This document shows positions 10,123 to 57,283 of a stretch of DNA of 64,000 nt, one piece after another. A model generated the notes under the pieces. That model worked only from the letters and a program-made list of their open reading frames with translations. It did no database searches and was not told the origin of the DNA. Numbering within the stretch: position 1 is the first letter of the stretch; each line of letters begins with the position of its first letter. Both the position numbers and the translations under genes were made by a program. The DNA is from Burkholderia aenigmatica (GTDB lineage Bacteria > Pseudomonadota > Gammaproteobacteria > Burkholderiales > Burkholderiaceae): positions 1 through 64,000 of the forward strand of contig NZ_CABVQC010000048.1 in NCBI RefSeq assembly GCF_902499175.1. Direction: 5' to 3'.

Positions 10123-10142
10123 ATGTGAACCATGGTTGACAT
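10123..10142. promoter_or_regulatory. Palindromic operator upstream of the toxin-antitoxin pair
   Basis: ATGTGAACCATGGTTGACAT is a 20-bp palindrome apart from one mismatched pair (the two G positions flanking the central AACCATGGTT). Type II antitoxins usually repress their own operon through such sites. It covers an upstream in-frame ATG at 10132, which argues that the toxin starts at 10153. Confidence 0.55.
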
Positions 10143-10152
10143 ACTGGAATCC

Positions 10153-10470
10153 ATGCCCTACAGTGCGCCTACGTTCAGCATCCGGACCACCGACGTCTTC
10201 GACGCCTGGTTTGCCGGCCTGCCGGATCGCGTCGCGAAGCGACGCATCCAGGCACGCATCGACCGCCTCTCGATGGGCAATCCGGGCGACTGGAAGTCCC
10301 CCGGCTCGCCGGTCGTCGAGATGCGGATCGATCATGGCCCCGGCTATCGCGTCTACTACGTCCGGCGCGGAACGATCTGGGTCGTCCTGCTCTGCGGCGG
10401 CGATAAATCGACGCAACAGGCCGACATCCGTGCCGCCCACGCGATGCTCGCGCATCTCGACATGGAGTAA
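10153..10470 (+). CDS. HigB/RelE-superfamily toxin (type II toxin-antitoxin)
   Basis: Small basic protein of 105 residues from the preferred start. The sequence FSIRTTDVFDAWFAGLPDRVAKRRIQ at the N-terminus, MRIDHGPGYRVYYVRRG in the middle and VVLLCGGDKSTQQADI near the end match the addiction-module killer protein group (Gp49/HigB-like) of the RelE superfamily, which cleaves mRNA on the ribosome. The toxin gene comes first and the antitoxin gene follows after 3 bp, the order typical of higBA. An ATG at 10132 in the same frame would add seven residues but lies inside the operator palindrome. Confidence 0.85.
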   Translation: MPYSAPTFSIRTTDVFDAWFAGLPDRVAKRRIQARIDRLSMGNPGDWKSPGSPVVEMRIDHGPGYRVYYVRRGTIWVVLLCGGDKSTQQADIRAAHAMLAHLDME

Positions 10471-10473
10471 TCG

Positions 10474-10773
10474 ATGGACAAGATCAGCACCCGGCCGTGG
10501 GATTCGGCCGACCACCTGAAAACCGAAGACGACATGGCCGACTACTTCGAAGCGTGCCTGCAGGAAGCCGGCGACGATCCGGCCTTCATCGCGCACGCGC
10601 TCGGCGTGATCGCGCGCGCGCGCGGCATGTCGCAGGTCGCACGCGATGCGGGCCTGTCGCGCGAGGGGCTGTACAAGGCGCTGTCGCACGATGGCAATCC
10701 GAGCTTCGGCACGATCCTGAAGGTCATCAAGGCGCTCGGCCTGCAACTGCACGGCGCAAAAGCGCACGCATGA
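10474..10773 (+). CDS. HigA-like HTH antitoxin
   Basis: Protein of 99 residues with a Cro/C1-type helix-turn-helix in ARGMSQVARDAGLSREGLYKALS (about 49-71) and a conserved N-terminal region (LKTEDDMADYFEACLQEAG) typical of the putative addiction-module antidote family. It is expected to bind and neutralise the toxin encoded 3 bp upstream and to repress the operon through the palindrome at 10123-10142. The ATG follows the toxin stop almost directly, so expression is coupled. The pair sits alone between unrelated chromosomal genes. Confidence 0.87.
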   Translation: MDKISTRPWDSADHLKTEDDMADYFEACLQEAGDDPAFIAHALGVIARARGMSQVARDAGLSREGLYKALSHDGNPSFGTILKVIKALGLQLHGAKAHA

Positions 10774-10821
10774 TGCGCGGGCACGGCCCGGCGCGCCCGC
10801 CGCGCGATACCCGTGGCCGCG

Positions 10822-12108
10822 TCAGTGCAGCCAGCCGGCCGCCCAGCGCGGCACCAGCGACACCAGATACAGCCCGAGCCCGATCAGCCCGCCGACCAGC
10901 GTGCCGTTGATGCGGATGTATTGCAGATCCTTGCCGATATTCAGCTCGATCTGCCGCGACATCTCGCGCGCATCCCAGTTGCGCACCGTATCGCGAATGT
11001 GACGCATCAGGAAATCCGCGAAATCCGGCGCCATCTCGTGCACCGCCTTCTCGACGTGCTCGTTCAGCGACGCGCGCAATGCCGGGCTCTCCGCCAGCCG
11101 CGCGCCGAGCCAGCCGCCGAGCGTCGCGGCCTGCCGGTGCAGCGCCGAATCGGGGCGCGCGAGATCGGCCTTCAGCCACGCGCGCAACTGATCCCACAAG
11201 TCGCGCACGTACTCGTTGAACGCAGCGCCGTCGCGGATATAGTGCTTGATCTCCTCGCCCTTCGCGATGAACGCCGGGTCGTGTTTCAACCGCTCGGTCA
11301 GCCGCACGACCGTCCGGTCGAAGCGCTGCCGCAGCTCGTGCTCGGGGTCGGCCGCCACGCCTTCCAGCACGCGACTCACCGCGTTCGCGAGCATCCGCGC
11401 GCCGTTCTCGCCGAACCACTGCGTCGGCATGATCTTCTCGACCTTCGGGTACTGCGTCTTCAGCCATTCGACGATGAAGCCGGCGATCACCTCGCGGTTC
11501 TCCTCCTTGTCGAGCACGTCGACCACCTGCTCGATCGCGTCGTCGAGCAGCGCCTGGTGACGGCCGTCCTTCGTCAGCGTGTCGAGGACCGCGCCGGCCG
11601 ATTGCGACAGGTCGACCCGGTCGATCACCGCGCGAAACGCGTCGTGCACGAACGACTGGATCCGTGCGTCGTCGGTCATGTCGAGCGCGAAGCTCATCAG
11701 CTTCGTCACATAGCCGCCGAGCGCCTCGGTGTTCGCCGGCTCACCGAGCCACGCGCCGAGTTTCTGCGCGGGATCGTGCTGGCGGATCTGCGCGGCAAGC
11801 GCGTCGGGGCCGAGGAACTTCTCGCGCACGAATACCGCGAGGTTGTCGGCGATCTTGTCCTTGTTCTTCGGAATGATCTCGGTATGGCGCGACACGAACG
11901 GGATCGGCACGCGGCGGAACAGCGCGACCACCGCGAACCAGTCGGCGAGCGCGCCGACCATCGCGGCTTCGGCCACGGCCTTGAAGCCGTCGACCCACGG
12001 GCCGCGCGGCAGCAGGATCGTCGTGACGAACACCGCGACGGCGGCCAGCAGCAACCACAGCGCACGGCGCTTGCTGCGTTTCAGTTCGAGGGCTTTGTCT
12101 GGCGTCAT
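10822..12108 (-). CDS. DUF445 family membrane protein
   Basis: 428-residue protein of the DUF445 (YjiN-like) family; function unknown. An N-terminal hydrophobic segment (ALWLLLAAVAVFVTTILLP, about 16-34) is followed by the conserved VGALADWFAVVALFRRVPIPFVSRHTEIIP region. A long helical, hydrophilic middle and a C-terminal hydrophobic hairpin (TLVGGLIGLGLYLVSLVP) follow. Length agrees with the family. The start at 12108 was chosen because residues upstream of it are low-complexity and not conserved in character. It is convergent with the toxin-antitoxin pair and has no operon partner. Confidence 0.85.
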   Translation of the reverse strand: MTPDKALELKRSKRRALWLLLAAVAVFVTTILLPRGPWVDGFKAVAEAAMVGALADWFAVVALFRRVPIPFVSRHTEIIPKNKDKIADNLAVFVREKFLGPDALAAQIRQHDPAQKLGAWLGEPANTEALGGYVTKLMSFALDMTDDARIQSFVHDAFRAVIDRVDLSQSAGAVLDTLTKDGRHQALLDDAIEQVVDVLDKEENREVIAGFIVEWLKTQYPKVEKIMPTQWFGENGARMLANAVSRVLEGVAADPEHELRQRFDRTVVRLTERLKHDPAFIAKGEEIKHYIRDGAAFNEYVRDLWDQLRAWLKADLARPDSALHRQAATLGGWLGARLAESPALRASLNEHVEKAVHEMAPDFADFLMRHIRDTVRNWDAREMSRQIELNIGKDLQYIRINGTLVGGLIGLGLYLVSLVPRWAAGWLH

Positions 12109-12277
12109 GGGCAACGGTCGGGCGAACGATGCCGCTAATATGCACCGGTTGCGGTGTTGCCGACAAACATTGCGACGCGCATCGCTCCGGCAGCAACCCA
12201 CCGGAACGAACCGGCGGGGCGCGCACGATGCCGGCCGGCGCCGTCACCGCCAGCCGGGCCGGATCACCATGCGCGTG

Positions 12278-13498
12278 CTACAGAAACGTCTTCAGGTTCA
12301 CGGCCGGATCGGCGAGCTTCACCGGGTCCGGCACCGCGCTCGCCGCGATCAGCCGGCGCGATGCACCGATGTCGCGCCCCAGGTTCGCCGCGGCCACCGC
12401 GACGATCCTGCCGTCGTCGCCCAGCCCGAACACCGTGAACGGCCCGTTCGCGGGATCGCCGCGCACGACGATCGTAAGTTCGCTGCCGAACAGCCCGAGC
12501 ATCTGCAGGTTGCAGTCGTACTGATCGGACCACAGCCACGGCAACTCGGCATAAGTCTCGTCGGCGCCGAGCAGGTTCGCGGCCGCGACGGCCGGCTGGT
12601 TTTCGGCGACCTGCCACGATTCGATCCGCACGTGACGCCCAAGCAGCGGATTGAAGTGCATCGTCACCTCGCCCGCCGCGAAGATCGCGGGATCGACCGT
12701 GCGGCAGCCTGCGTCGACGCGTATTCCGTTGTCGACCTCGAGCCCCGCCGCCTGTGCCAGCTCGGCATTGGGCACCACACCGATGCCGACCACGACGAGG
12801 TCAGCCGGCACGTCGCCACGATCGGTCTCGACGATCGCGCCGCCGCCCGGTGCGCGACGGATCGCGCTCGGCAGCGTCGCCATCTGGAAGATCACGCCGC
12901 GTGCATCGTGCAACCGATGCGCGTACGCGCCGACCACCTCCGGCAACGCACGCTGCAGCAAGCGCGGCGCCGGATCGATCACCGTCACGTCGCAACCGAG
13001 CTGACGCGCCGCCGCGGCGACCTCGAGGCCGATGAAACCGCCGCCGAGCACCGCCACGCGACGGCCCGGCGAAAGCTGCGCGCGCAACGCACGCGCATCG
13101 TCGATGGAGCGGACGTAATGCGGCTTGACGCCTTCGTCGACCGCCCCGCCGAACGTGCGCACCCGCGAGCCCGTCGCGAGCACGAGCCGCGCATAGGGCA
13201 GCGTCGCGCCGTCGTCGAGCCGCACACGCTGCGCCTCCCGCTCGATCGCATCGACACGCGTGCCGAGCCGCAGCTCGATGCGCTGCGCGTCGTACCACCC
13301 GGCATCGCGCACGAACGCACGCTGCTCGCCGCCGTCGCTCAGCAGTGCATCCTTCGACAACGCGGGCCGGTCGTACGGCAGCTCGCGTTCCGCGCCGATC
13401 ATCACGATGCGCGCCGCGGCGTCGCGTTCGCGCAGCGCTTCGGCCGTGCGCCGCGCCGCATGGCCGGCGCCGACGATCACGAACGGATCAGCCGACAT
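12278..13498 (-). CDS. andAa: Anthranilate 1,2-dioxygenase ferredoxin reductase component
   Basis: FAD- and NADH-binding reductase of 406 residues that passes electrons to the Rieske ferredoxin AndAb. The N-terminal dinucleotide fold VIVGAGHAARRTAEALR, the FAD-contact region YDRPALSKD, the second NAD fold VAVLGGGFIGLEVAAAAR and the FAD motif IFAAGEVT near residue 300 are all visible, as in BphA4/AndAa-type reductases. It is the last gene of the andAcAdAbAa operon and overlaps andAb by 11 bp. The order matches the anthranilate dioxygenase described from Burkholderia cepacia DBO1, which gives the symbol. Confidence 0.87.
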   Translation of the reverse strand: MSADPFVIVGAGHAARRTAEALRERDAAARIVMIGAERELPYDRPALSKDALLSDGGEQRAFVRDAGWYDAQRIELRLGTRVDAIEREAQRVRLDDGATLPYARLVLATGSRVRTFGGAVDEGVKPHYVRSIDDARALRAQLSPGRRVAVLGGGFIGLEVAAAARQLGCDVTVIDPAPRLLQRALPEVVGAYAHRLHDARGVIFQMATLPSAIRRAPGGGAIVETDRGDVPADLVVVGIGVVPNAELAQAAGLEVDNGIRVDAGCRTVDPAIFAAGEVTMHFNPLLGRHVRIESWQVAENQPAVAAANLLGADETYAELPWLWSDQYDCNLQMLGLFGSELTIVVRGDPANGPFTVFGLGDDGRIVAVAAANLGRDIGASRRLIAASAVPDPVKLADPAVNLKTFL

Positions 13499-13814
13499 TG
13501 ACTTCCACCTGCCCGGCGACGATCCGGATCGGATAGGTCCGCACCGGTTCGGTGATCGGCGCGCATTTCGGCGCGCCGGTGCGGATGTCGATCAGCCCCT
13601 GGTGCAGCGGGCATTCGACGCAGCCGTCCTCCACATAGCCTTCGGACAGCCGCGCATGGCCGTGCGTGCAGAGGTCGTGCATCGCGAACAGTTCGTCGCC
13701 GATCCGGAACACGGCGATCGGCTTCTGGCCGGCGACCCGCGCCGCCGGTTCGTCTTCGGAGAATTCGTCGAAAGCGCCGAGCGGATGCCACTCGGCGAGC
13801 GTTGCTTCGGTCAT
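13488..13814 (-). CDS. andAb: Anthranilate 1,2-dioxygenase Rieske ferredoxin
   Basis: 108-residue Rieske [2Fe-2S] ferredoxin that carries electrons from AndAa to the oxygenase. The cluster ligands are visible as CTHGHARL and, 16 residues on, CPLHQG (C-x-H...C-x2-H). Size and fold are those of BphA3-type ferredoxins. Its end overlaps the andAa start, and it begins 20 bp after andAd. Confidence 0.9.
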   Translation of the reverse strand: MTEATLAEWHPLGAFDEFSEDEPAARVAGQKPIAVFRIGDELFAMHDLCTHGHARLSEGYVEDGCVECPLHQGLIDIRTGAPKCAPITEPVRTYPIRIVAGQVEVNVG

Positions 13815-13834
13815 GTCTGTTCCTTGCTTCCGTA

Positions 13835-14323
13835 TCAGATCGGGGTGGCGAGCAGCGTCTGCACGCGCGACGTGTCGTAGATCACCCGCTTGGTCTTGTA
13901 GCGCAGCCCGTCCGGCGTGCGCACGACCGTGTCGTAGTACTTGCCGGCCTGGTACACGTTCGACTCGCCGTTGCTGCGCGTCTGCACGACGACGTAGTTG
14001 CTTTCCGTGTCGATCTCGCCGTCACGTTCCGCAACGATCGTCAGGCCCGACGTCATGTGCCGGTACGTATGCTCTTCGTAGATGTTCGCGTGCCGCAGCG
14101 ACACCACGCGGTCGCGCAGCATCCGCTGGTTCGTGCAGTGGACGATCCCGACCGGCAGCCCGAGGTCGGCGTTTTCCTTCGGCACGATTTCGTACGTGCA
14201 GTCCTCGGTGAACATCGTCGGCCATGCTTCGAGCCGGTTGTTGTCGAGGTGCCCGATATAACGGTTCTGGAGCATGTAAATCTCGAACCACGTCTTCATG
14301 TCTTCCGTCAGGTTTTCCATCAT
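13835..14323 (-). CDS. andAd: Anthranilate 1,2-dioxygenase small (beta) oxygenase subunit
   Basis: 162-residue beta subunit of a ring-hydroxylating dioxygenase (SnoaL/NTF2-like cone fold), structural partner of AndAc. Family features include WFEIYMLQNRYIGHLDNNRLEAW near the N-terminus, FTEDCTYEIVPKEN and the C-terminal YKTKRVIYDTSRVQTLLATPI (the end of the beta-subunit domain). Two adjacent ATGs occur; the first is used. It starts 14 bp after the andAc stop. Confidence 0.88.
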   Translation of the reverse strand: MMENLTEDMKTWFEIYMLQNRYIGHLDNNRLEAWPTMFTEDCTYEIVPKENADLGLPVGIVHCTNQRMLRDRVVSLRHANIYEEHTYRHMTSGLTIVAERDGEIDTESNYVVVQTRSNGESNVYQAGKYYDTVVRTPDGLRYKTKRVIYDTSRVQTLLATPI

Positions 14324-14337
14324 TCCGCGCTCCCGCT

Positions 14338-15609
14338 TCAATAGCCCATCAGCTTCTGGTAGCCGACCCAGAACTTGCGGATCAGGCTTTCGGTGATCAC
14401 CGTGTCCTGCTGGTCCGGATTGCCGCGCGACATCTCGATCACCGACGTCGCGTCGCCGTCGCGCACCGTGCCGCGCTGCACGAGCTCGGTCGCCTCCGTG
14501 TCCTCCATCGAGATATAGCCCGCGGGCCCGACGAGGTTCGCCTGCTTGATGCGCAGCGCGCGCAGCTCGGGCGTATCGTCCGCGTAGCCGAAGAAGTGGA
14601 AGATCAGTTCGAAGTTGTCGGGGCCTTTCGGCAGGATCTGGCGTGCGACCAGCGTGTTGTGAATCTGCTGGATCACGAGCTGCGGGAAGATCGGCTGGAT
14701 ATGGTTCGTGCAGTCCTCGTCGTATTCCGACACGAGATCGAGGATCGATTCGTCCTCCAGATGGAAGCCTTCGTCGAACGAACGGATGTTCTGCTGCTTG
14801 TACGCGGCCGACGTGTCGTCGCCGGTCTTCGTCACCGTGATGATGCTGTGCAGCCCGTGGTTCGCGTCCGGAATCGAGCGCGCCTTCATCCCGACGCGGA
14901 AGATGTTGAAGGTCGTATGGAACAGGTGCAGCATGCTCGCGTGATACGGATCCTTCACGTTCTCCATGTACAGCTTCCAGTTCGACTTCGAATACTGGCG
15001 CGTACAGCCGAGATACTCGATCGGCTTGTGGAAGATCCGGTCGATCCACGGGCGCATCTGCTCGCCGAGATAGTCGGGCAGCGGCATCACGTCGTCGCTG
15101 AAGGTGGCGAACACGAGCCCGCGATAGCTGTCGACGCGCAGCTTGCGCAGCCCGTGCTGCTTCGGGTCGAAGTCGGCCGGCATCCCGGACATCCCCTTCT
15201 GGCCGCGCCGGAACGGCACGCCGAGCAGGTTGCCCGAATTGTCGAAGCTCCACTGGTGATAGACGCACGTGTGCGAGCTCGCGTTGCCGCGCGACTTGCG
15301 GCACACCTGCGCGCCGCGGTGCGCGCAGCGGTTCACCCACGCGGAAAGCGTGCCGTCCTCGGTCCGCGTGACGACCACCGGCGTATCGCCGACGAACGTG
15401 CTCTTGAAGTCGCCGGCGTTCGGGATTTCCGCTTCCAGCGCGACGAAGTTCCACGTCGGGCCGCGGAAGATGCGTTCCTGTTCGCGATCGTAGACCGCGC
15501 GCGAGCTGAACACCTTGTACGGCACGCGCGAGCCGTCGTCGTGCGGAAAGGTCACGTCGGACGCGTCACCGCGCGCGGCGAAAACGACGGGCGATTCTGT
15601 CTGCTCCAT
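14338..15609 (-). CDS. andAc: Anthranilate 1,2-dioxygenase large (alpha) oxygenase subunit
   Basis: 423-residue catalytic subunit that dioxygenates anthranilate, yielding catechol with loss of CO2 and ammonia. The Rieske ligands are CAHRGAQVC (C-x-H) and CVYHQW (C-x2-H); the mononuclear iron site is in NVKDPYHASMLHLFH (two His of the facial triad). The start at 15609 has AGGAG at good spacing; an upstream in-frame ATG at 15645 lacks one. It is the first gene of the and operon, divergent from the AraC-type regulator. Substrate assignment rests on operon order and its position next to the catechol genes. Confidence 0.88.
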   Translation of the reverse strand: MEQTESPVVFAARGDASDVTFPHDDGSRVPYKVFSSRAVYDREQERIFRGPTWNFVALEAEIPNAGDFKSTFVGDTPVVVTRTEDGTLSAWVNRCAHRGAQVCRKSRGNASSHTCVYHQWSFDNSGNLLGVPFRRGQKGMSGMPADFDPKQHGLRKLRVDSYRGLVFATFSDDVMPLPDYLGEQMRPWIDRIFHKPIEYLGCTRQYSKSNWKLYMENVKDPYHASMLHLFHTTFNIFRVGMKARSIPDANHGLHSIITVTKTGDDTSAAYKQQNIRSFDEGFHLEDESILDLVSEYDEDCTNHIQPIFPQLVIQQIHNTLVARQILPKGPDNFELIFHFFGYADDTPELRALRIKQANLVGPAGYISMEDTEATELVQRGTVRDGDATSVIEMSRGNPDQQDTVITESLIRKFWVGYQKLMGY

Positions 15610-15685
15610 GTCGGACTCCTGGTCGATCCGTTTCGTTGAATGCATGGAGCAGATTTTTGAAAAGCTAATATTCGCCGTCTATCCG

Positions 15686-15720
15686 GAAAGTGCGATTGCG
15701 GCGGCGCAATATCCACTTTC
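15686..15720. promoter_or_regulatory. Inverted repeat in the andAc-andR divergent promoter
   Basis: GAAAGTG (15686-15692) and CACTTTC (15714-15720) form an inverted pair around a GC-rich centre, with partial extension of the arms on both sides. It lies in the 213-bp gap between the divergent dioxygenase operon and its AraC-type regulator gene, where an AndR site is expected. Binding is inferred. Confidence 0.4.
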
Positions 15721-15822
15721 GGCGGATTTCTGCGCTAGCATGACGGCACACGCGACCCGGCGCGCGATCGCGACCCATTCGTCGGATCGAAGCGCACGTC
15801 GCTCATACCAAGGCTGAGGCCC

Positions 15823-46199: not shown

Positions 46200-47435
46200 A
46201 TGACCATTACCGTGCTTCAAGGCGGCAACGTACTCGATCTCGAACGGGGCGTGCTGCTCGACCATCATCATGTCGTGATCGACGGCGACCGGATTGTCGA
46301 AGTCACCGATCGGCCGGTGGATTTTCCGAATGCACATGTGATTGACGTGCGCGGCAAGACCGTGATGCCGGGGTTCATCGATTGCCATGTGCATGTGCTG
46401 GCTTCGAATGCGAATCTCGGCGCGAATGCGACGCAGCCGAATATTCTTGCGGTGATTCGGTCGTTGCCGATTCTCGATGCGATGTTGTCGCGCGGGTTCA
46501 CCAGCGTGCGCGATGCAGGCGGCGCGGACTGGAGCTTGATGCAGGCGGTCGAAACCGGGCTGGTGTCGGGGCCGCGGATTTTTCCGTCGGGAAAGGCGTT
46601 GTCGCAGACCGGCGGGCATGGGGACTTTCGGCCTCGCGGGGACTTGCTGGAGCCTTGTTCGTGCTGTTTCAGGACAGGGGCGATTGCTCGGGTGGTGGAC
46701 GGGGTCGAAGGTGTGCGGCTTGCGGTGCGTGAAGAGATTCAGAAAGGCGCGACGCAGATCAAGATCATGGCGTCAGGTGGAGTGGCTTCGCCGACCGACC
46801 CGATTGCGAACACGCAGTATTCGGAGGATGAGATTCGGGCGATCGTCGATGAGGCTGTGGCCGCGAATACTTATGTGATGGCGCACGCGTATACAGGGCG
46901 AGCGATTGCGCGGGCGGTGCGCTGTGGGGTGAGGACGATCGAGCATGGGAATCTCGTGGACGAGGCGGCGGCGAGACTGATGCACGAGCATGGCGCGTTT
47001 GTAGTGCCCACGCTTGTCACTTATGACGCGCTTGCCAAACACGGCGCGGAGTTCGGGATGCCCCCCGAATCGGTGGCAAAGGTGGCTTCCGTTCAGCAGA
47101 AGGGGCGAGAGTCGCTGGAAATCTATGCGAACGCCGGCGTGAAGATGGGGTTCGGGTCGGATCTGCTCGGGGAAATGCATACGTTTCAGTCCGGCGAGTT
47201 TCGGATTCGGGCGGAGGTGCTCGGGAATCTGGAAGCGCTCAGGTCGGCGACGACCGTAGCGGCGGAGATCGTCAACATGCAGGGGCAGCTCGGGGTGGTG
47301 GCGGCGGGAGCGATCGCGGATCTGGTCGTGCTCGACGGGAATCCGCTCGAGGATATCGGGGTGGTGGCCGGTCAGGGGGAGCGCGTCGAATATGTGTTGC
47401 AGCGGGGGAAGGTTGTGAAGGCGCGGGGGGGTTAG
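46200..47435 (+). CDS. Metal-dependent amidohydrolase
   Basis: 411-residue amidohydrolase of the imidazolonepropionase/Xaa-Pro (prolidase-like) branch. Metal ligands can be placed: HVH in VMPGFIDCHVHVLAS, Lys in IKIMASGGVASP, His in MAHAYTG, His in RTIEHGNL and Asp in GFGSDLLGEM. The C-terminus GAIADLVVLDGNPLEDI closes the composite beta-sandwich. It probably hydrolyses an N-acyl or peptide-like compound taken up by the MHS symporter encoded just upstream. Confidence 0.88.
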   Translation: MTITVLQGGNVLDLERGVLLDHHHVVIDGDRIVEVTDRPVDFPNAHVIDVRGKTVMPGFIDCHVHVLASNANLGANATQPNILAVIRSLPILDAMLSRGFTSVRDAGGADWSLMQAVETGLVSGPRIFPSGKALSQTGGHGDFRPRGDLLEPCSCCFRTGAIARVVDGVEGVRLAVREEIQKGATQIKIMASGGVASPTDPIANTQYSEDEIRAIVDEAVAANTYVMAHAYTGRAIARAVRCGVRTIEHGNLVDEAAARLMHEHGAFVVPTLVTYDALAKHGAEFGMPPESVAKVASVQQKGRESLEIYANAGVKMGFGSDLLGEMHTFQSGEFRIRAEVLGNLEALRSATTVAAEIVNMQGQLGVVAAGAIADLVVLDGNPLEDIGVVAGQGERVEYVLQRGKVVKARGG

Positions 47436-47519
47436 GGTTCGCGGTTGTGCGGATTCCTTCGTGTACAGCGGTCGTGACAATCGTTCAAGGTGATCATCGA
47501 CACGGACGCGGCGCCCGCG

Positions 47520-47765
47520 TTAACCCCCGCTCTCGGTCGTGTTCACGCGGTAACAGCAATCCAGCAGCAAGGGCCGCGCGAAGCGGCCCTTGCTGCTGGA
47601 TTGCTCCTCTACCTGGGCGGCCGCGCCGTAAGGCTGCTCTCGCCAGCTCATCGCGCTGCGATCAGGTTTGATAGTGATGTGCCGAAGATCGAAATTGAAC
47701 GTGAGATATACGCGATCATCCGGTTCGAATCCCAATAACGTGAAATGCGCGTCGATGGCGCGCAT
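47520..47765 (-). CDS. Doubtful small reading frame, weak SymE-like look
   Basis: 81-residue frame: HFTLLGFEPDDRVYLTFNFDLRHITIKPD has a pattern of strands that weakly recalls SymE-type toxins (GF..G..V.V......I.I). The second half is formed by a perfect hairpin (47555-47605) and is unlikely to be functional protein. It lies at the left edge of the island. It may be a fragment or not a gene. Confidence 0.25.
   Translation of the reverse strand: MRAIDAHFTLLGFEPDDRVYLTFNFDLRHITIKPDRSAMSWREQPYGAAAQVEEQSSSKGRFARPLLLDCCYRVNTTESGG
47555..47605. repeat. Perfect 23-bp inverted repeat with 5-nt loop
   Basis: Arms at 47555-47577 and 47583-47605 are exact complements; the loop is GCGAA. It lies 120 bp after the amidohydrolase and 214 bp before the OLD nuclease gene. 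There is no T-tract on either side, so it is not a standard intrinsic terminator. Confidence 0.9.
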
Positions 47766-47818
47766 CCATGATCGGTTACTATGAGAGAGATAACTAACTG
47801 AGAATCGGGGAACAAGCT

Positions 47819-50146
47819 ATGCGCATCGAATTCATTGAGATCGCAAACTTTAGAAAACTATTATCGGCCCGAGTAGGATTATCAACCGAAAGGACTGTCT
47901 TCGTTGGCGCCAACAATAGCGGAAAGACCTCAGCCATTACAGCGCTGCGCTATTTTCTCGTCGATCGAGAACGATCAAGCTTTTGCTTCAACGATTTCAC
48001 ACTCTCCCACTGGCCGACAATCAACGCAATGGGTGCCTCGTGGGAAGCTGCACATACTGCAAACCAGCCACTGCCCGATCCGACATGGGATAAGGTATTG
48101 CCGTTCCTCGATGTCTGGCTTCACGTTGCCGATGACGAAGTTCACTATGTTCAGAATATCCTGCCCACTCTCGATTGGGACGGGGGGCGACTAGGTGTGC
48201 GCTTGCGCCTCGAACCAAAGGACACTTTAAAACTACAGTACGAATATGTGACTGCACGGTCTCAAGCGCTGGCGCTTCAGTCGTCAGGCGCCGCCTTGGC
48301 CGAAGAGCAAGGTAAGGCTGCAGCTGATTTTCAAGTAGCAATTTGGCCTCAGGACCTTGTGGAGTTCCTGAAACGTCGACTTGCAGCGTTTTTTGTCGTC
48401 AAAGCCTACGTGCTCGACCCGGCTAAGTGCGTCGAGCCGGAGAATGGTCTGGCCAAGCCACAGACACTCAATGGGAGTGAACCAATTGATGGAGATCCGT
48501 TTCGCGGCCTCATTCGTATAGACGAAATCAGTGCTCAGCGCGGATTTGGCGTGGCGGGTGACGACAATACTGAAGACGCAACCGTCACCACGAGCGGGAC
48601 ACGAAAGCTGTCAACTCAACTCCGACAGTACTACACCCGCCATCTCGATCCCTATGAGAATCCGGATGCGCAAGACCTCCTCGCGCTCAAAGCGATCGAA
48701 GAAGCCCAGAAGGCGTTCAACCTAAGGCTTAGCGACGGCTTCAAAAGCCCGCTTAAGGAAATGCACAAGCTTGGCTATCCAGGTGTTACAGACCCCAAGC
48801 TGAACATTTCGACACGGCTACGCCCCGTTGAAGGGCTGAACCACGACGCGGCAGTGCAATTCATCGTACCTATCAATGACGGCGAAAACGCTGCCGATTT
48901 ATATCTACCAGAGGACTCCAACGGACTCGGGTATCAGAATCTCATCTCGATGGTCTTCCGTCTTATGGCCTTTCGAGACAGTTGGATGCGCGTCGGCAAA
49001 GCGAAACATAAAGTTGCTGACGATACAATTATCCCACCCCTGCATTTGGTACTGATCGAAGAGCCCGAGGCCCACCTTCACACCCAAGTTCAACAGGTTT
49101 TCATCCGGCAAGCGCACAAAATTCTGCGTAATCACGTTGACCTCGGCACGAGCAAAAATTTTGTGACTCAAATGTTAGTCAGCACGCACTCGAGTCACAT
49201 TGCTCACGAGTGCGATTTCGACTCCTTACGTTACTTCCGTCGTTTACCGGGTGGAGAAAAGGCGATTCCGACTTCGTGCGTCATCAACCTGGAAAACGCG
49301 TTCGGCAACGACTCAGACACAAAGCGCTTCGCGACCCGTTATTTGCGGGTCACCCACTGTGACCTATTCTTTGCGGATGCTGCAGTGCTGATCGAGGGGC
49401 CCGCCGAACGCATCCTTGTACCAAATTTTGTGAATTGCCATCCAGAGTTCGAGAAATTGTCAGAAAGTTATATCACTTGGCTCGAGATCGGCGGCAGTCA
49501 TGCTCATAAATTGCGCAGCTTAATCGAAAAAATCGGCCTCACAACATTGATTATCACTGACATCGATTCCAATAATGCAGCGGGCGCCAGTGCACCACCG
49601 GTGCGCGGCGCAAACTACACAACCCGCAATACGACTCTGCGAACATGGTGGCCTGTCATCAGTGATCTCGACCTGCTGCTCGATATACCGGAGAACGAGA
49701 AGACCAAAGTCTATGCAGACGAAAATTTCTCAATACGCGTTGCTTACCAATCGCCCGTCCTGGCGACGTTCAAGGGAGTTACTGCCGAGGCACTCTCCTA
49801 TACTCTGGAAGACGCAATTGTAATGGCGAATCTCAGTTTGTTCGAGACATTGCAGGGAACCGGACTCGTCTCCAAGTTCCGAGTTGCCATCACCAGTAGC
49901 GAAGATCTAAATGCTCTAAGCGGGACGCTCAAAAAGGCGCTTGAAGGTGGAGGGAAAGCTGAATTCGCACTGGATCTACTCGAGATTGAAAACCCCCTTT
50001 CGTTGAGCCCCCCTGCCTACATCCGCGAAGGTTTGCTATGGTTGGCAGCTCAACTCGAACGCAAACAGGTCGAACTAGGGCTTACACAAGTAGCAGGAGA
50101 TGGGGACAACAAGGTCGACACCGCACCGGAAGAGGCAGCGGCATGA
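47819..50146 (+). CDS. OLD-family ATPase/TOPRIM endonuclease (GajA-like)
   Basis: 775-residue overcoming-lysogenisation-defect (OLD) nuclease. The ABC-type ATPase has Walker A GANNSGKT (about 30-37), a signature-like NGLGYQNLISMVFRL, Walker B LHLVLIEEPEAHLH (about 408-421) and the H-loop LVSTHSSHIAHE. The TOPRIM nuclease domain follows, with its Glu in VLIEGPAERIL (about 525) and DxD in IITDIDSNN (about 581-583). The adjacent UvrD helicase overlaps it by 4 bp, the layout of class 2 OLD proteins and of Gabija anti-phage loci. It is about 200 residues longer than the GajA prototype (578), with a large insert between Walker A and the signature. GC is lower than in flanking genes. GGGGAA precedes the ATG. 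Confidence 0.88.
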   Translation: MRIEFIEIANFRKLLSARVGLSTERTVFVGANNSGKTSAITALRYFLVDRERSSFCFNDFTLSHWPTINAMGASWEAAHTANQPLPDPTWDKVLPFLDVWLHVADDEVHYVQNILPTLDWDGGRLGVRLRLEPKDTLKLQYEYVTARSQALALQSSGAALAEEQGKAAADFQVAIWPQDLVEFLKRRLAAFFVVKAYVLDPAKCVEPENGLAKPQTLNGSEPIDGDPFRGLIRIDEISAQRGFGVAGDDNTEDATVTTSGTRKLSTQLRQYYTRHLDPYENPDAQDLLALKAIEEAQKAFNLRLSDGFKSPLKEMHKLGYPGVTDPKLNISTRLRPVEGLNHDAAVQFIVPINDGENAADLYLPEDSNGLGYQNLISMVFRLMAFRDSWMRVGKAKHKVADDTIIPPLHLVLIEEPEAHLHTQVQQVFIRQAHKILRNHVDLGTSKNFVTQMLVSTHSSHIAHECDFDSLRYFRRLPGGEKAIPTSCVINLENAFGNDSDTKRFATRYLRVTHCDLFFADAAVLIEGPAERILVPNFVNCHPEFEKLSESYITWLEIGGSHAHKLRSLIEKIGLTTLIITDIDSNNAAGASAPPVRGANYTTRNTTLRTWWPVISDLDLLLDIPENEKTKVYADENFSIRVAYQSPVLATFKGVTAEALSYTLEDAIVMANLSLFETLQGTGLVSKFRVAITSSEDLNALSGTLKKALEGGGKAEFALDLLEIENPLSLSPPAYIREGLLWLAAQLERKQVELGLTQVAGDGDNKVDTAPEEAAA

Positions 50147-52038
50147 CCACCATTGTCCCGTCAACGACAAACATTTTGCTCGACGAGCATATCGAAGAAG
50201 AACTAACTAGACTTTTGAGTCTGGAAAATCCCACAAGCTTCTTTCTGTTCGCGGGTGCCGGTTCGGGCAAAACTCGTTCACTTGTAAACGCACTGAATCA
50301 TTTGGCTAAGACATACCGCGACGCACTCCGTCTACGTGGTCGACAGGTGGCAGTAATAACCTACACCAACGCAGCGTGCGACGAAATTATGCGACGCACC
50401 GAGTACGATCCGCTGTTCGTTGTAAGCACTATTCATAGCTTCGCTTGGTTACGTATCCAAGGATTAAATTCCGATATCAGAGCTTGGCTGAAGGACAACT
50501 TGCTGCGCGAGATTGCCGATCTCCAAGCTGAAGAAAGGAAGGGTCGCGCAGGTACAAAGGCATCGGCCGTACGTCAAAGTCAGATCGAGTCCAAACAACG
50601 CCGACTAGATAGGTTGGCCGACGTTAAGGCATTTACCTACAACCCCAGTGGTGACAACCGAGAACGCAATGCGCTGAACCACAGCGAAGTCATCAAAATA
50701 TTTTCGGCGTTTTTACTTGAGAAGCCGCTTATGCAGCGTATCCTCGTCGAGAAGTTTCCGTTTTTGTTGATCGATGAGAGTCAAGACACTAACCGCACAC
50801 TAGTTGATGCACTGCTCGCAGTACAGAAGAATCATGCCGACCGTTTTTGCCTAGGTCTCATCGGCGATACAATGCAACGCATCTATCCAGACGGCAAAGA
50901 GCGAATCGAACGAGAAATACCTGAAGACTGGGCTACTCCAGAGAAGAAGCTAAACCACCGGTGCCCTCGGCGCATTGTCAAGCTCATAAATCAGATTCGA
51001 AAAAGTACCGATAATCACAAGCAAGAACCGCGCGACGACCAAACCGAGGGTTGGGTGCGGCTCTTTGTCTTTCCAGCCGATGCACCTGACAAACCCGCTC
51101 TAGAGCAGGGAGTCCGAGACTATATGGCGGGACTCACAGGTGACGAAGGTTGGGCGGACACGAATAAATGCAAAATACTGACCTTAGAGCACCACATGGC
51201 GGCTAAGCGAATGGGTTTCTTGCAGATGTTCGAGGCGCTGGCTTCCGTTGATGACTACCGGACAAGCTTCCTCGATGGCAGCTTTGCGCCGACTAAATTC
51301 TTCACCCACTACGTGCTACCGCTTGTAACTGCACAACAAAACGGTGACAAGTTCGCAGTAACCAAGCTGGTACGCGAAAACTCGCCGTTGCTCAGCAAGG
51401 ATACATTGAAGGCGAATGACAAACCGATAGCACAACTCCGCACTGCCAAGGTGGCCATCGACAGCCTAATGGCACTCTGGACCAATGGCGAACCAACCTG
51501 TTCTGCTATTGTCGCGAATATTGCCCAAACCAATCTCTTCGAGATCCCTGACGGCCTGAAAGCCGCTTTGGTAGCCACAAAGGCTGAGCCAGCAGGAACT
51601 TCCGACGAGGAGGCTGACCCTGTCGGCGACCATATCGCTGCACTGGTCGCGTTTCTCGACTGCGCATTCTCGGTAATCGCACCGTATGCCGCTTATATCG
51701 CACACGAGGCCCCATTTGATACCCATCAGGGGGTGAAAGGGTTGGAATTCGATCGTGTCATGGTGCTCATGGACGATGGAGAAGCTCGAGGTTTCCTGTT
51801 CGGCTACGATAAGCTACTAGGCGCCAAGACACCCTCAGCTGCCGATTTCAGGAATATCCAAGAAGGCAAAGAAACCTCCGTGGATCGCACACGACGCCTG
51901 TTCTACGTGACCTGCAGTCGCGCCCGGTCAAGTTTAGCTCTTGTCGCCTATTCCACTGAACCTGCTGCAGTTCGAGCACATGTCATCGCAAATGAGTGGT
52001 TCGGTGCCGACGAGGTTCTATCCAAGCTTCCTCAATGA
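50143..52038 (+). CDS. UvrD/PcrA-like superfamily 1 helicase (GajB-like)
   Basis: 631-residue SF1A helicase. Motifs in order: Walker A AGAGSGKT (about 38-44), Ia AVITYTNAACDEIMRR, Walker B/II LLIDESQD (about 208-215), III LIGDTMQRIY, IV-type LNHRCPRRIVKLIN, V THQGVKGLEFDRVMVL (about 526) and VI RLFYVTCSRARSSLALV (about 585). The ATG lies in the stop of the OLD gene (ATGA), so the two proteins are co-produced. In Gabija the helicase partner and OLD nuclease act together against phage DNA. It is longer than GajB (about 490). The frame is open upstream, but the overlap fixes the start. Confidence 0.88.
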   Translation: MTTIVPSTTNILLDEHIEEELTRLLSLENPTSFFLFAGAGSGKTRSLVNALNHLAKTYRDALRLRGRQVAVITYTNAACDEIMRRTEYDPLFVVSTIHSFAWLRIQGLNSDIRAWLKDNLLREIADLQAEERKGRAGTKASAVRQSQIESKQRRLDRLADVKAFTYNPSGDNRERNALNHSEVIKIFSAFLLEKPLMQRILVEKFPFLLIDESQDTNRTLVDALLAVQKNHADRFCLGLIGDTMQRIYPDGKERIEREIPEDWATPEKKLNHRCPRRIVKLINQIRKSTDNHKQEPRDDQTEGWVRLFVFPADAPDKPALEQGVRDYMAGLTGDEGWADTNKCKILTLEHHMAAKRMGFLQMFEALASVDDYRTSFLDGSFAPTKFFTHYVLPLVTAQQNGDKFAVTKLVRENSPLLSKDTLKANDKPIAQLRTAKVAIDSLMALWTNGEPTCSAIVANIAQTNLFEIPDGLKAALVATKAEPAGTSDEEADPVGDHIAALVAFLDCAFSVIAPYAAYIAHEAPFDTHQGVKGLEFDRVMVLMDDGEARGFLFGYDKLLGAKTPSAADFRNIQEGKETSVDRTRRLFYVTCSRARSSLALVAYSTEPAAVRAHVIANEWFGADEVLSKLPQ

Positions 52039-52104
52039 ACTACATCTAATTGCGAATAGCTACCTTCGACTGCAAACCTCCTAACCCTTGTGATAGCGTC
52101 AAAA

Positions 52105-53103
52105 ATGGCTTCCGAAGATAGATTCAAACAACTCATAATTACAACCCTGGCGAAACGGTCTGCCTACAGATGTGCGAATCCTGATTGCGGGACAATCACA
52201 AGTGGCCCGACCGAAGATCCTAACAATGCGATCAATGTAGGTGAAGCAGCTCACATTTACGGCGCGAATCCGGGCTCCGCTCGCTATGAACCGGCAATGA
52301 CCTCGGCAGAAAGAAGCGCCATCACCAATGCCATTTGGCTATGTAGTAATTGCCATAAAAAGGTCGATGACGATCCACTCAGGTATCCCGCCGGTCTAAT
52401 GTTTGAATGGCAAAGAGCCCACGAAAGCCATATCGCTGAACAAATAGGAAAGTCAGCAGCGGATATTAGGCGTCGATATGAACAGCGGCATCTAGAAGAA
52501 CTCGGACGCTTAAGCTACCTCTCCGAGCGCATTATTCTCGAGAAAGGGGAATTTTGGAAATTCCGTTTGACGGCAGAGATACTTCGCTATGAAATGTTGC
52601 CGATACTGCAACGATGGTCGGCACTTGAGCGAGGTCTTTATATAAAACCCGCAACTCGGATCGCGACGCCCGATATCGCCGCCTGGTTTCTTGATCGAAT
52701 GCACGAGATTAGGCAGCTCGCCGACGCCTTTTCCGCGTTGATGAACACTGAACTTGCTCGAGCCTGGGGTGAACCCGGCGTAGCTGGTTCTGATGTCGAA
52801 ATCATTGGTACATGCAGATTGATTGCCGAGATGTGCAGCAGCGCCCTCGCTTGGGAAGAAAGTGTCCGCTTCTCTCGGGTCGATGAGCCCTTCTCCGAGG
52901 TGCATGGGTTGCTTAGTGGTGCTGCCGCAGACTTCTTCGAGCAAGCCAGAAAGGTACCCGAATTCCTTTCTAGCGTAATTGAACAGAACCCTATCGGCGG
53001 ACACTACGAACTAAATCTAGTGCTTGGTCTTCCAGACGATTTCGCTGAAAACATCCATGCGGCAACTGAAAGGGCGATGGCCATGATGCAGCGTCACCAT
53101 TGA
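52105..53103 (+). CDS. HNH endonuclease with helical C-terminal domain
   Basis: 332-residue protein. The N-terminal 90 residues are an HNH nuclease: zinc-type cysteines C23/C28 (RCANPDCG) and C80/C83 (WLCSNCHKKVDDD), catalytic His50 in GEAAHIYGA, Asn75 in ITNAIWLC and His84. The remaining 240 residues are helical and acidic with no recognised motif (RRRYEQRHLEELGRL, LDRMHEIRQLADAFSALM, EMCSSALAWEESVRF). It starts 66 bp after the helicase gene on the same strand and shares its lower GC, so it is probably the third gene of the defence locus. A GTG at 52090 is in frame; neither start has a clear ribosome site. Standard Gabija has no such gene. Confidence 0.83.
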   Translation: MASEDRFKQLIITTLAKRSAYRCANPDCGTITSGPTEDPNNAINVGEAAHIYGANPGSARYEPAMTSAERSAITNAIWLCSNCHKKVDDDPLRYPAGLMFEWQRAHESHIAEQIGKSAADIRRRYEQRHLEELGRLSYLSERIILEKGEFWKFRLTAEILRYEMLPILQRWSALERGLYIKPATRIATPDIAAWFLDRMHEIRQLADAFSALMNTELARAWGEPGVAGSDVEIIGTCRLIAEMCSSALAWEESVRFSRVDEPFSEVHGLLSGAAADFFEQARKVPEFLSSVIEQNPIGGHYELNLVLGLPDDFAENIHAATERAMAMMQRHH

Positions 53104-53678
53104 ATTTGACTAACGTTCTTAACACTCTGATGCAATTCACATGTCTGGATTGCGTCTAGACAACGCAAAGACCACGTGATCGAGTTTCACCAGATTCTTC
53201 GCAGGATAGTACAGATCGTCGATGATATACCTATGAATAAAAAATAACGTCAATATTTCAGGTAACGATACTAGCGTCGCTGCCTGAACTACCCAAAAAC
53301 CGTCCAGGCCATATCGACTGAAAAGATCACAAAGCGAAAAACGCACAAATCGTCGAGACTTGGGGAAATTTTACGAATAGTCAGACCGCTATCAAGCTGC
53401 GTGGGCTGGCGTTAAAAAATCGCTCCAGCAAGAAATAATACGCAGCCCTCAGCTGGAAATCAATCGATAATCAGCTTTCCACCCGATTTTATAACAGACT
53501 CTCGCAAACATCTAATCACTGAATCGATTAACCATCCCACCCACAAATTCAGACAAACCACCCAATTAAAAATTTCCAGCACCACCCCTTCCTATTCACC
53601 ACCATTCTGTAAAATCAGATAAAATTGATGGCCGACTTTAAATATCAATCCACAAAAAATCACCACCACACTTAAAAT
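53104..53678. other. AT-rich gap inside the island
   Basis: 575 bp of AT-rich sequence with no well-supported gene. A 69-residue minus-strand frame (53137-53346, MRFSLCDLFSRYGLDGFWVV...) has hydrophobic character but no ribosome site, and another minus-strand piece around 53395-53485 reads QLRAAYYFLLERFFNASPRS between stops. These may be remains of a decayed membrane protein gene. The 53590-53678 part is very AT-rich and may carry the promoter of the next gene. Confidence 0.4.
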
Positions 53679-54101
53679 ATGTTCGCCATAAAAGATATCG
53701 AGAGCGTAAAGAACTTAGCGTCCATTCTTGTCATCCCGTTTTTCGCGGCTGCCTTTATCGCAGGTGGAGGCTTGAACACATTCAACGACCCTGTCACAGG
53801 CTGGCTTACGGCGTCCAGTTACCTGCCGTTCAAGATTATCGGTTACTCACTCCTTCTCGCCTCCGTTGTTGCACTGACCACACTAACATTCGCGATTGTT
53901 GACTATTGTGTTATCTGGATTCACGTAACGCTGAACAGTGCATATCCAATGGCAATCTTCGGGTTCACATCATTGACCGCAGGCTTATTCGTACTCTCGT
54001 TCGCCGTGCCAGGATTGCCCAAGAGCCCGCTCAACCCGTTTTGGCACTTTGGATTTCTTTGTTACGGCTTCTCCCTTCTCTCACGGGGAGAAAATCGCTA
54101 A
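53679..54101 (+). CDS. Small multi-pass membrane protein in the island
   Basis: 140-residue hydrophobic protein with three to four membrane segments (ILVIPFFAAAFIAGGGL, IIGYSLLLASVVALTTLTFAI, MAIFGFTSLTAGLFVLSFAV, FWHFGFLCYGFSLLS). The N-terminus MFAIKDIESVKN is cytosolic. No ribosome site is obvious and no family is recognised. Its composition matches the defence genes upstream. It ends at the island's right junction, where a decayed chemoreceptor fragment begins. A membrane effector or an unrelated cargo gene are both possible. Confidence 0.55.
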   Translation: MFAIKDIESVKNLASILVIPFFAAAFIAGGGLNTFNDPVTGWLTASSYLPFKIIGYSLLLASVVALTTLTFAIVDYCVIWIHVTLNSAYPMAIFGFTSLTAGLFVLSFAVPGLPKSPLNPFWHFGFLCYGFSLLSRGENR

Positions 54102-54105
54102 CCCC

Positions 54106-54350
54106 CCACCGTGAAAGCTGACACGCGTATGGTCAATTCCACGGTCACACTTTCATCCGCCCAAGCCGAATCAACTGCATCGTTTGATCGAGCAACTGCG
54201 CCGCATCGCCGATCTGGTCGATGTCGGCGCTCTATTTCAGGCTGATTTCAACAAGCGTGCAGCCCCTGCTCCTGCGAAGCGATATCTCTCGTCGCCCCTT
54301 CTACCTCGCTGACCGGCCGCGGACCCGATATTCACTGCTCCGCGACAACT
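54106..54350 (-). pseudogene. Decayed 3' fragment of a chemoreceptor gene
   Basis: The DNA is similar, with many changes and small gaps, to the 3' end of the intact chemoreceptor gene at 55252-57114. Matching blocks include GTGAAAGCTGACAC (54111) against TTGAAAGCCGACAC, GATCGAGCAACTGCGCCGC against GATCGAGCGACTGCACCGC, and GCCGCGGACCCGATATTCAC against GCCGCGACCCGGTATTCAC. The frame is destroyed. It ends just where the next intact gene stops. Confidence 0.7.
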
Positions 54351-54358: not shown

Positions 54359-55147
54359 CTACCGCACCACGGCATCGACCATCAACTGTGCTTGTGCAAC
54401 AAGTCGTGGATAAATCCTCTGCGAAACCACTTGTTTCGCGTAACATGCCTGTCGCGCGCCCTCGGTGACTTGTCCTGCACTGCACGATGCAATTTGCCGA
54501 ACCGTCACATCCCTCCAGACGACATAAACCCGCTCTCCCTGCCTGACCGACACTACCAACGTATTCGGCCCCTCCGGCACGCCATCCTGGCTTTCCCCCA
54601 GCAGCAGCGCCTTCACCACCGCGTCAGTTGGCTTCCGCTTTACCGGCAATTCGGCAAACCGAAATGCAGCAGCGTCATCGCTGAACACGTCGGTATAAAA
54701 CGTCTCGTTGTCGAACACAACGACAACGTCATCCGTTGGGTTGATCCCCGCATCCGCCGTCTTCGTCCACGCCCTCAAAAGCGGAACCGTCGTCACAACG
54801 AGATTCACCTTCCCGTCATTCGACTTCAAGAGCAGTCCATCCGGCCCGGGTGTCATCCCGTTGTCGATGTAGAGGGTGTCCACAGTACTCCCCGCCTTCC
54901 CGGGAAAACCTTTCGCCCTAACAGTCCCAACAAGCTTAACCAACCGCGCATTCACCTCAGCCGTGTATTTCTTGTCCAGATCCGCCTGATCTTCCATCCG
55001 CGCCGCTGTAATCGCGTCGACGGCTTTCTTCCGATAGGCAAGATAAGAATCGGTAGGCGACGCAATCACCTTCGCGCCCACCGCAGCCACCACCGCGACG
55101 AGCACCACCGCCCCCACCCCGATCTTCCACCTGGAAATGCGCTTCAT
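54359..55147 (-). CDS. Hypothetical membrane-anchored or exported protein
   Basis: 262-residue protein with an N-terminal signal anchor (KIGVGAVVLVAVVAAVGAKVI, about 7-27) and a soluble extracytoplasmic part: a helical stretch (YLAYRKKAVDAITAARMEDQADLDKKYTAEVNARL), then beta-rich sequence (LLLKSNDGKVNLVVTTVPLLRAW, DDVVVVFDNETFYTDVFSDD). Two cysteines (ASCSAG and QACYAK) may form a disulphide. Function unknown. It lies between a decayed and an intact chemoreceptor gene on the same strand. Confidence 0.7.
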   Translation of the reverse strand: MKRISRWKIGVGAVVLVAVVAAVGAKVIASPTDSYLAYRKKAVDAITAARMEDQADLDKKYTAEVNARLVKLVGTVRAKGFPGKAGSTVDTLYIDNGMTPGPDGLLLKSNDGKVNLVVTTVPLLRAWTKTADAGINPTDDVVVVFDNETFYTDVFSDDAAAFRFAELPVKRKPTDAVVKALLLGESQDGVPEGPNTLVVSVRQGERVYVVWRDVTVRQIASCSAGQVTEGARQACYAKQVVSQRIYPRLVAQAQLMVDAVVR

Positions 55148-55251
55148 TTTTATGAACGTCACCGAATCCTGCGCCGATATGCAAAACGGCTGCCGTGAAC
55201 CCACGGCAGCCGTCCCTCAGAAACGCCCTATTCTAAATCGCGAATCAGGCT

Positions 55252-57114
55252 TTACTCATCCACCTTGAAAGCCGACACCAGCCGGGTCAATTCCGCCGCC
55301 TGCTGCTTCAAGCTTGCCGCAGCCGCCGCGCTTTCTTCCACCAATGCCGCATTCTGCTGCGTCATCTGATCGAGCGACTGCACCGCGTCCCCGATCTGAT
55401 CGATACCGGCGCTCTGCTCCAGGCTCGCCTCAGCGATCTCGCTCATCATCGCGCTGACACCTTGAACCTGCGAGACAACGTCGCTCATCACCTTCCCGGC
55501 TTCCGTAACCAGCCGCGACCCGGTATTCACCGTCCCCGCGCTATGTTCGATCAGCGCCTTGATCTCCTTCGCCGCCTGCGCGCTGCGTTGCGCCAGATTC
55601 CGCACCTCCGAAGCCACCACAGCAAACCCGCGCCCCTGCTCCCCGGCCCGCGCCGCTTCCACAGCCGCGTTCAACGCCAGAATATTCGTCTGGAACGAGA
55701 TGCTGTCGATCATCACGATGATCTCGGAGATCCGCTGCGACGCGTCGCTGATCTCCTGCATCGTGGTCACGACTTCACCCACCACCTGCCCGCCGCGCGC
55801 CGCCGTATCGGAAGCGCCGTTGATCATCTTCGCGGCCGTCGTCGCCGTTTCGGTGTTGTTCCGCACCACGGCCGTGATCTCTTCCATCGACGAAGCCGTG
55901 CGCTCCAGGTTGCTCGACTGCCCTTCGGTGCGTTCGCTGAGGTCCGCATTCCCCGTCGCAATCTGCGCCGACCCGGTGGCAATCGACGCGGATGCCGCCC
56001 GAATGCTGTGCACCAGCGTCGAAAGCGACGACACGAACCGGTTGAACGCATCCGACAACTGCCCGATCTCGTCCTGGCTCTCGACCGTCATCCGGCGCGT
56101 CAGATCGCCCTGACCGCTGGCGATCTCCGACAGCAGCGTCGCCGCGCGGCGGATCGGCGCGGCGATCGCGCGGCCCACCAGCCAGATCACGAGCAATGCA
56201 ACACCGAGCCCCACCACCGCCGCAACCAGCGCCGCGCTACGAATCGCACGCGTCACCGGCCCGAGCAGCTCCGCCTGCGGCACCTCAACGACAACATACG
56301 CATTCAACTCCGGAATAAACGACGTCGCGATGAAACGCGCGCCGCCATCGCCGTTGTAGCTCAAGTACGCATACGGCTTGCCGCCCAGGAGCGTCGCCGA
56401 CGCATCACCCGGCAGCCCCGGCTCGTCCTTCATGAAATGCTTGCCGTCGATCAGCGAAGAATCGCGATGCATCATGATCGCGCCATCGGGACGCACGAGA
56501 TACGCGAACCCGGTCTCACCGATCCGGTACGCAGCGATACCCTTCGCGAGCGCATCGACGGACAGGCTCATGCAGGCCGCGCCGATCGGCACACCATCGA
56601 GCTCGACGCGGCTGTTGATGAACATCATGTAGCCGCCGACCGTCACCTCGCGGTCCATGTTCACATCGAACGCCTTACCGGACGACAGGAAGCCGGTCAG
56701 CCACTGATCCTTGTCGGTCACCTTCCGCTGCAGGCCGGCTTCGTTGTAGTAGTTGCCGCTCTTCACGGACACCCACTGCACCGACGCGGCCTTCTGCTCG
56801 TCCTTCACGTTCTTCGCGAGCTGGATCCAGTTGCGCGTGCCGGCGTCGGGTTCGCCGTCGGCCTCCCATTGCAGCAGGAACGCATCGCGCGCGAGAATCC
56901 GCGACGCGGCGATCGGCCCGGCCATCTGCCGCTGCACGTCGGCACGGATGCCGTTCACGGCCGTCGGCAGCTCTTCGCGCACGACGCGATCGCGCACCGC
57001 GTTGCCGATCAGACGGAGGCTGAGTCCGCTCGAGATCGCGACGAACACGAGCAGGCAACTCGTCATGCTGAGAATCAGCTTGTTCTGAATGGAAAGCTTG
57101 CGCCAGAAATGCAT
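55252..57114 (-). CDS. Methyl-accepting chemotaxis protein with dCache sensor
   Basis: 620-residue chemoreceptor. It has membrane segment 1 at about 13-33 ([20 protein letters not shown]), a double-Cache periplasmic sensor (about 40-285; [24 protein letters not shown] and [20 protein letters not shown]), membrane segment 2 ([21 protein letters not shown]), HAMP, and a signalling domain. The tip is [20 protein letters not shown], continuing [20 protein letters not shown], the classical form. The end LVSAFKVDE lacks a CheR pentapeptide. The likely ligand is a small organic molecule such as an amino or organic acid. The start at MHFWRKL was chosen over an upstream ATG at 57168 because the membrane segment follows at the usual distance. 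Confidence 0.9.
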
Positions 57115-57283
57115 GGGGAACCCTCGATAGCCGCTCGGTCTGAGCCAGTTTGGGTTATCGGCATGCACGCGCAGAACCGCATCGCTGATTTCAGATGTTC
57201 ATCATGCGAGATTCGTTATGTTGTTGTCAGGCGGGCATAAGCGGCCGCCTATAAGCTCGCAATCGACGAAAATTCAGCGTCAA

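Follow-up and report, generated by a model that had tools for sequence, protein, structure and literature searches.

The 64-kb window of Burkholderia aenigmatica DNA considered here (positions 1 to 64,000 of contig NZ_CABVQC010000048.1, whole stretch) contains three consecutive plus-strand genes, namely gajA (47819..50146), gajB (50143..52038) and an HNH nuclease gene (52105..53103) that encodes the protein P0003. They are best read, with a probability of about 0.87, as an intact two-gene Gabija system of the long-GajA subfamily followed by an unrelated, stand-alone HNH gene, both being cargo of a variable, often defence-related site. This ordinary Gabija with an independent HNH gene beside it is favoured because, of 46 distinct loci with a GajA relative, 45 also have gajB and none has the HNH gene, and because all three full-length relatives of the HNH protein occur without Gabija. 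An earlier note, made from the letters of the window, had proposed instead an enlarged Gabija relative and possibly a distinct three-gene anti-phage system.

Regarding the genes themselves, that note had described them correctly: all three are intact, on the same strand and poorer in guanine and cytosine (GC; 0.52, 0.52 and 0.51, against 0.638 for the whole window), the products of the first two have 775 and 631 amino acids (aa), and the coordinates of the open reading frames (ORFs) confirm a start/stop overlap of 4 bp between gajA and gajB. The distance of 66 bp between gajB and the HNH gene stands with the start at ATG 52105; GTG 52090 is an alternative start of the HNH ORF, and 52105 is the more probable one because the homologues align from there. 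The ABC ATPase and TOPRIM motifs, the SF1A helicase motifs and the HNH site are likewise confirmed. GajA is a class 2 OLD nuclease with Walker A at residues 30-37, Walker B at 410-417 and the TOPRIM residues E526, G558, D581 and D583, while GajB is a UvrD/Rep-like SF1A helicase with motifs I, Ia, II, III, V and VI. Pfam assigns AAA_15 and OLD-like_TOPRIM to the first protein and UvrD-helicase to the second, and an Rfam scan of the window from 46 to 56 kb gave no match.

The pairing of OLD and UvrD proteins as Gabija was borne out by PADLOC, whose GajA model PDLC00093 matched the first protein with 920.5 bits (residues 1-753, model positions 1-729 of 736) and whose GajB model PDLC00111 matched the second with 846.4 bits (residues 13-626, model positions 8-622 of 625). 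PADLOC includes GajA models with lengths of 736 and 752 positions, and GajB models with 625 and 632, that are matched here nearly end to end, so that the sizes of the two proteins are normal for their subfamily, and the ORFs of GajA relatives at least 73% identical in the tree described below encode 773-910 aa; "enlarged" therefore fits only in comparison with the proteins of B. cereus. The active-site positions of B. cereus GajA, listed as E379, G409, D432 and D434 in PMC10781630, align with E526, G558, D581 and D583 of the window protein, and the match between the B. cereus GajA structure and the window GajA amounts to just 56 bits. Each feature of Gabija testable here (ATPase with TOPRIM, catalytic E/G/DxD, GajB partner) is found, and by its motifs and model matches the pair is assigned to this already known system as a further member. 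Elsewhere in the genome, a different contig encodes a further and more distant relative of GajA (G000:C77:1319-3127).

The association of these genes elsewhere was followed in three search sets: one genome per species for 84,980 species, which yielded 20 loci at 46-88% identity to the window GajA; the genomes of the family, with 20 others matching at E ≤ 1e-50; and plasmid records, from which 8 were taken of 307 with a match. Altogether, 46 distinct loci were compared by tblastn (26 plus 20, the latter L133-L152), their GajA being 30-88% identical to that of the window; L107, a duplicate of L002, and the viral contig L122, which carries GajAB with the same tblastn identities as L009, were not counted. 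The 20 loci of the 84,980-species scan all carry gajB and none has the HNH gene. Across the 46 loci, the deviations concern L142, with a 560-aa GajA piece and no gajB, and L110, where only the first part of gajB precedes the contig end. No match to the HNH protein was found at E < 1 in any of the 46, of which L014 and L110 do not test the downstream side because less than 400 bp are present after gajB; in 16 of the 46, GajA is 73-88% identical to that of the window. In the 26-locus set, read by eye, the genes 3' of gajB vary from one locus to another.

A tree of 42 GajA rows, composed of the window protein and the fetched relatives only, placed the former in a 15-row clade (support 100/100) that unites alpha-, beta- and gammaproteobacteria with one Desulfovibrionaceae genome; the branches among the distant rows are long. 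The tree omits L002, L014 and L019 by choice; L020 and L066 fell under the limit of 550 aa, the GajA match of L020 being split into two pieces in different frames. Close relatives in distant taxa are taken as a sign that gajA-gajB has spread widely without the HNH gene.

These data bear directly on the idea of a distinct three-gene system, in which the HNH protein would serve this Gabija as a second nuclease of its own, brought in or switched on by GajAB. The common strand, the short gap with no terminator-like site and the similar low GC speak for it; it is nevertheless extremely unlikely, as the HNH gene is missing from every one of the related loci, including those with the most similar GajA, and its own full-length relatives have no adjoining Gabija, one of their genomes (G1117) lacking any GajA match. 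The search for a conserved three-gene neighbourhood, suggested by the earlier note, showed a recurrent pair instead, and the two outcomes that the note had named as telling against its proposal are, as far as sequence can tell, those observed: all 46 loci are without the HNH gene, and the OLD and UvrD proteins fall squarely within the Gabija models. Among the titles listed in literature searches, none concerned Gabija with an HNH partner; in passages of PMC8136825, HNH refers to other nicking enzymes.

As for the relatives of the HNH protein, 23 of 398 genomes of the family (own included) matched it at E ≤ 1e-10, the matches other than the window's own gene covering the N-terminal HNH domain only, save a weak one (residues 24-210, 25%, E 6e-11). 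At the level of the phylum, 11 of 398 genomes (own included) matched at E ≤ 1e-12, and one, G1117, has a full-length relative that aligns over residues 9-298 at 37%. In this locus (L123) the HNH gene stands alone in a GC dip (0.43 in its own kb versus about 0.57-0.62 adjoining), next to a gene that is uvrA-like by eye; neither gajA nor gajB gave a match in the locus at E < 1e-10, and GajA gave none in the genome at E ≤ 1e-5. A profile built from the window and G1117 proteins found three IMG/VR loci, two with full-length relatives, L129 (56%) and L130 (58%), neither with a gajA or gajB match at E ≤ 0.01. In L129, the HNH gene and a toxin-antitoxin pair (5905-8248) lie on the strand opposite to the phage tail genes on both sides, which are, by PHROG, minor tail proteins on one side and a tail assembly protein with the central tail fibre J (in two pieces) on the other; this is an accessory-gene slot in the tail module, with the HNH gene as a moron. 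In L130, a recombinase-like gene lies at a distance of about 2 kb from the HNH gene, and a primase-like gene at 3 kb. As found here, the family has four members including P0003, two of them on viral contigs, and none of the three full-length relatives (34-58% identical) is beside Gabija.

Other searches added nothing to this family: of 357 genomes of the class of G1117, 3 had any match to the profile (G1117 included), with no new full-length relative; the C-terminal domain (P0004) had no match in plasmids and phages at E 0.1 and, in 369 genomes of its class, matched only its own; no match was found in E. coli DNA, and a viral scan with P0003 alone gave none that was confirmed. The protein H1 of a B. 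multivorans plasmid was considered as a full-length relative and rejected, its identity being 21.6% (pairwise 25% over residues 20-228) and strongest in the HNH part.

P0003 has its HNH domain at the N-terminus (about residues 12-127), with the site formed by C28, C33, H55, N80, C85, C88 and H89, and a C-terminal domain of unassigned fold. The first 120-odd residues match the HNH-SAVED and endonuclease-effector models of the cyclic oligonucleotide-based anti-phage signalling system (CBASS) and the PADLOC candidate PDC-M68A, and HNH and SAVED chains of the PDB give weak matches. Such similarities would suit a CBASS effector (Cap5) that has lost its partner genes; this origin is very unlikely, as the HNH-SAVED match stops at residue 121 and all matches of this kind are over by residue 130 or so, Pfam finds no SAVED domain in the protein, and no CD-NTase was recognised near the gene, where the cargo consists of gajA, gajB, the HNH gene and an ORF of 140 aa (53679..54101, plus strand) that is hydrophobic by eye and has no Pfam match. 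No family matched the C-terminal 210 residues with confidence, and in the alignment this domain is conserved in all four members, which argues that P0003 belongs to a family of its own and is not a remnant. Membership of PDC-M68A was rejected since the match is limited to the HNH part.

In Cap5, the nuclease is in front and the rear domain senses a signal. By analogy with this layout, the rear domain of P0003 may be a sensor. It can be proposed, tentatively, that P0003 is the founding member of a family of phage-borne proteins, each encoded by a lone gene and built of two domains, in which a Cap5-type HNH DNase would be gated by a C-terminal sensor; such a protein could be a single-gene weapon against phages or between them, borne as a moron, dropped into chromosomal defence sites and placed behind Gabija by chance. 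A homing-type, otherwise selfish or housekeeping nuclease with no role in defence is the other option for a gene that occurs alone, in phage and mobile-looking DNA; it is rather unlikely, because the HNH domain is nearest to those of the CBASS HNH-SAVED effectors and of other defence candidates, the gene adjoins Gabija, defence-type cargo abounds at their common site, and in the phage it has the position of a moron within the tail module. A literature search on stand-alone HNH defence, judged by titles, led nowhere.

Several points weigh against a full separation of the HNH gene from Gabija. It is co-directional with gajB, 66 bp further on, and neither a terminator-like nor a promoter-like site is listed for the gap, so that a joint transcript of gajA, gajB and the HNH gene is possible. 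Synergy between the two neighbours is possible as well, and the pairing, seen in the window genome only, possibly reflects a recent, local association; in addition, the HNH family is small, with a function argued from comparison. Lastly, an Agrobacterium plasmid (L151) encodes, about 2.7 kb beyond gajB, another protein annotated as an HNH endonuclease; two genes lie in between, and its own gene is on the opposite strand. This protein was rejected as a relative of P0003, with no match at E < 1. The region of L151 beside the Gabija pair (12460-15812) has genes for a cyclase-domain protein, a TIR-domain protein and the HNH endonuclease on the opposite strand, followed by an integrase, and is possibly a second defence module.

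Turning to function, the Gabija of the window very likely works as published, given its family membership and intact catalytic residues: GajA and GajB would assemble, as in the published work, and the TOPRIM site of GajA would cut or nick invading DNA with the help of the GajB helicase. A 2025 preprint proposes in its abstract that GajAB acts on linear DNA without RecBCD (PMC12407980). The HNH protein would be a separate DNase, its N-terminal nuclease being under the control of the C-terminal domain, as in Cap5, and would act alone, in defence or in competition between phages; its architecture and the moron position in the phage make such a lone DNase the most likely role.

The site that hosts both elements is a low-GC segment (47771..54350, GC 0.508) that contains gajA, gajB, the HNH gene and the 140-aa ORF. 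On the left it is bordered by an amidohydrolase-like gene (46200..47435, plus strand), which other species of the genus also have next to the site, and on the right by a 281-aa ORF and a methyl-accepting chemotaxis protein-like gene (54359..57168, minus strand), conserved across species of the genus; the names of both flanks were given by eye. In a survey of 60 other genomes of the genus, at least 26 had the two flanks near each other on one contig, and the gaps between them in the 26 listed loci range from 0.3 to 14 kb. Of 25 loci, 8 keep their homology to the left flank up to 47768-47770, 2 up to 47704-47746 and 15 only up to 47419-47455; homology to the right flank resumes at 54351 at the earliest. 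No truly empty site was found among the 26 fetched gaps: the shortest, L105 (0.3 kb) and L083 (1.2 kb), lack a DNA match to the gene of the 281-aa ORF on the right or contain a small cargo ORF.

PADLOC was run on 52 of the 65 ORFs of at least 200 aa, from 19 of the 26 loci, at E ≤ 1e-15 or E ≤ 1e-5 (seven loci, L092, L094-L097, L105 and L132, being outside the scan, the 1.7-kb gap of G400 among them), and matched 17 of the 52 proteins; matches of at least 150 bits occur in 8 of the 26 loci, 19 of them scanned, these counts referring to this site alone. L103 (G372) has another Gabija pair (7993-12311; 812 and 728 bits), whose GajA and GajB are 35% identical to those of the window, so that Gabija seems to have arrived at the site at least twice. 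L089 (G298) has a GajA-like protein (6894-8990; 703 bits), with no GajB or HNH relative among the ORFs called at the site. The other strong matches are to the Old model in L085 (191 bits), the dCTPase model in L084 (1265-2950; 430 bits), a fused AriAB in L099 (678 bits), PDC-S06 in L100 (1278 bits) and RT_UG5-nitrilase, present in L101 as one ORF of 1012 aa (1033 bits) and in L093 (449-3459) as two consecutive ORFs for the front and rear halves (507 and 476 bits), split or broken. Weaker matches, of 71-90 bits, were found in L081, L083, L086, L087 and L090. Three proteins with no PADLOC match at threshold may be unrecognised defence genes: a NACHT protein in L081 (7751-10708) and a ResIII-type helicase in L102 (1502-4453), both by Pfam, and a STAND-like NTPase in L098 (638-4105), whose Pfam match is below the curated cut-off.

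The site looks like a defence hotspot with cargo that differs by species and is low in GC for the most part. Against a purely defensive character stand the 35 of 52 scanned proteins with no PADLOC match at the thresholds used, the high-GC genes of L092 and L094-L097, several of which are common to these loci, and a VgrG-like gene in L103 and a ParA/MinD-type gene in L104 (both by Pfam). The ORFs called in the 25 other loci include no relative of the HNH protein, and among the titles listed in literature searches on Burkholderia defence hotspots none was on this site.

Two further observations concern the left boundary. An inverted repeat of 23 nt, perfect and with a loop of 5 nt (47555-47605), lies just before the cargo boundary, where L085 and L088 have self-complementary matches too; it is possibly the terminator of the amidohydrolase operon. 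In addition, the minus strand has an 81-aa ORF at the boundary (47520-47765), and similar ORFs of 98-165 aa are present in 10 of the 25 other loci.

The analysis removes a false lead, the three-gene Gabija, and offers two modest ones that lend themselves to testing: a small family of HNH proteins with a sensor-like C-terminal domain, of which two of four members are on viral contigs, and a site of the genus where anti-phage-type genes vary between constant core genes, which makes it a good hunting ground for new ones.

In comparison with known systems, the window shares with Gabija both genes, their order and overlap, the catalytic motifs and the near end-to-end matches to the PADLOC GajA and GajB models; it differs in belonging to the long-GajA subfamily, far in sequence from the B. 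cereus VD045 protein (56 bits), and in having an HNH gene after gajB, an arrangement that within the searched data occurs in the window genome only. Gabija is further characterised by a GajA:GajB 4:4 complex and by protection against phages. P0003 resembles Cap5 and the other CBASS HNH-SAVED effectors in its N-terminal HNH domain, and departs from them in having no SAVED domain and a different C-terminal one. PDC-M68A is its top PADLOC match (95 bits), although the match spans 116 of 253 profile positions, in the HNH part only. Finally, the HNH "lysogenic conversion" genes of the phages P2-EC46 and vB_YenM_31.17 encode an HNH domain that is 37-41% identical to that of P0003 over 106-120 residues, and they too are accessory phage genes; the similarity stops short of the C-terminal part of P0003.

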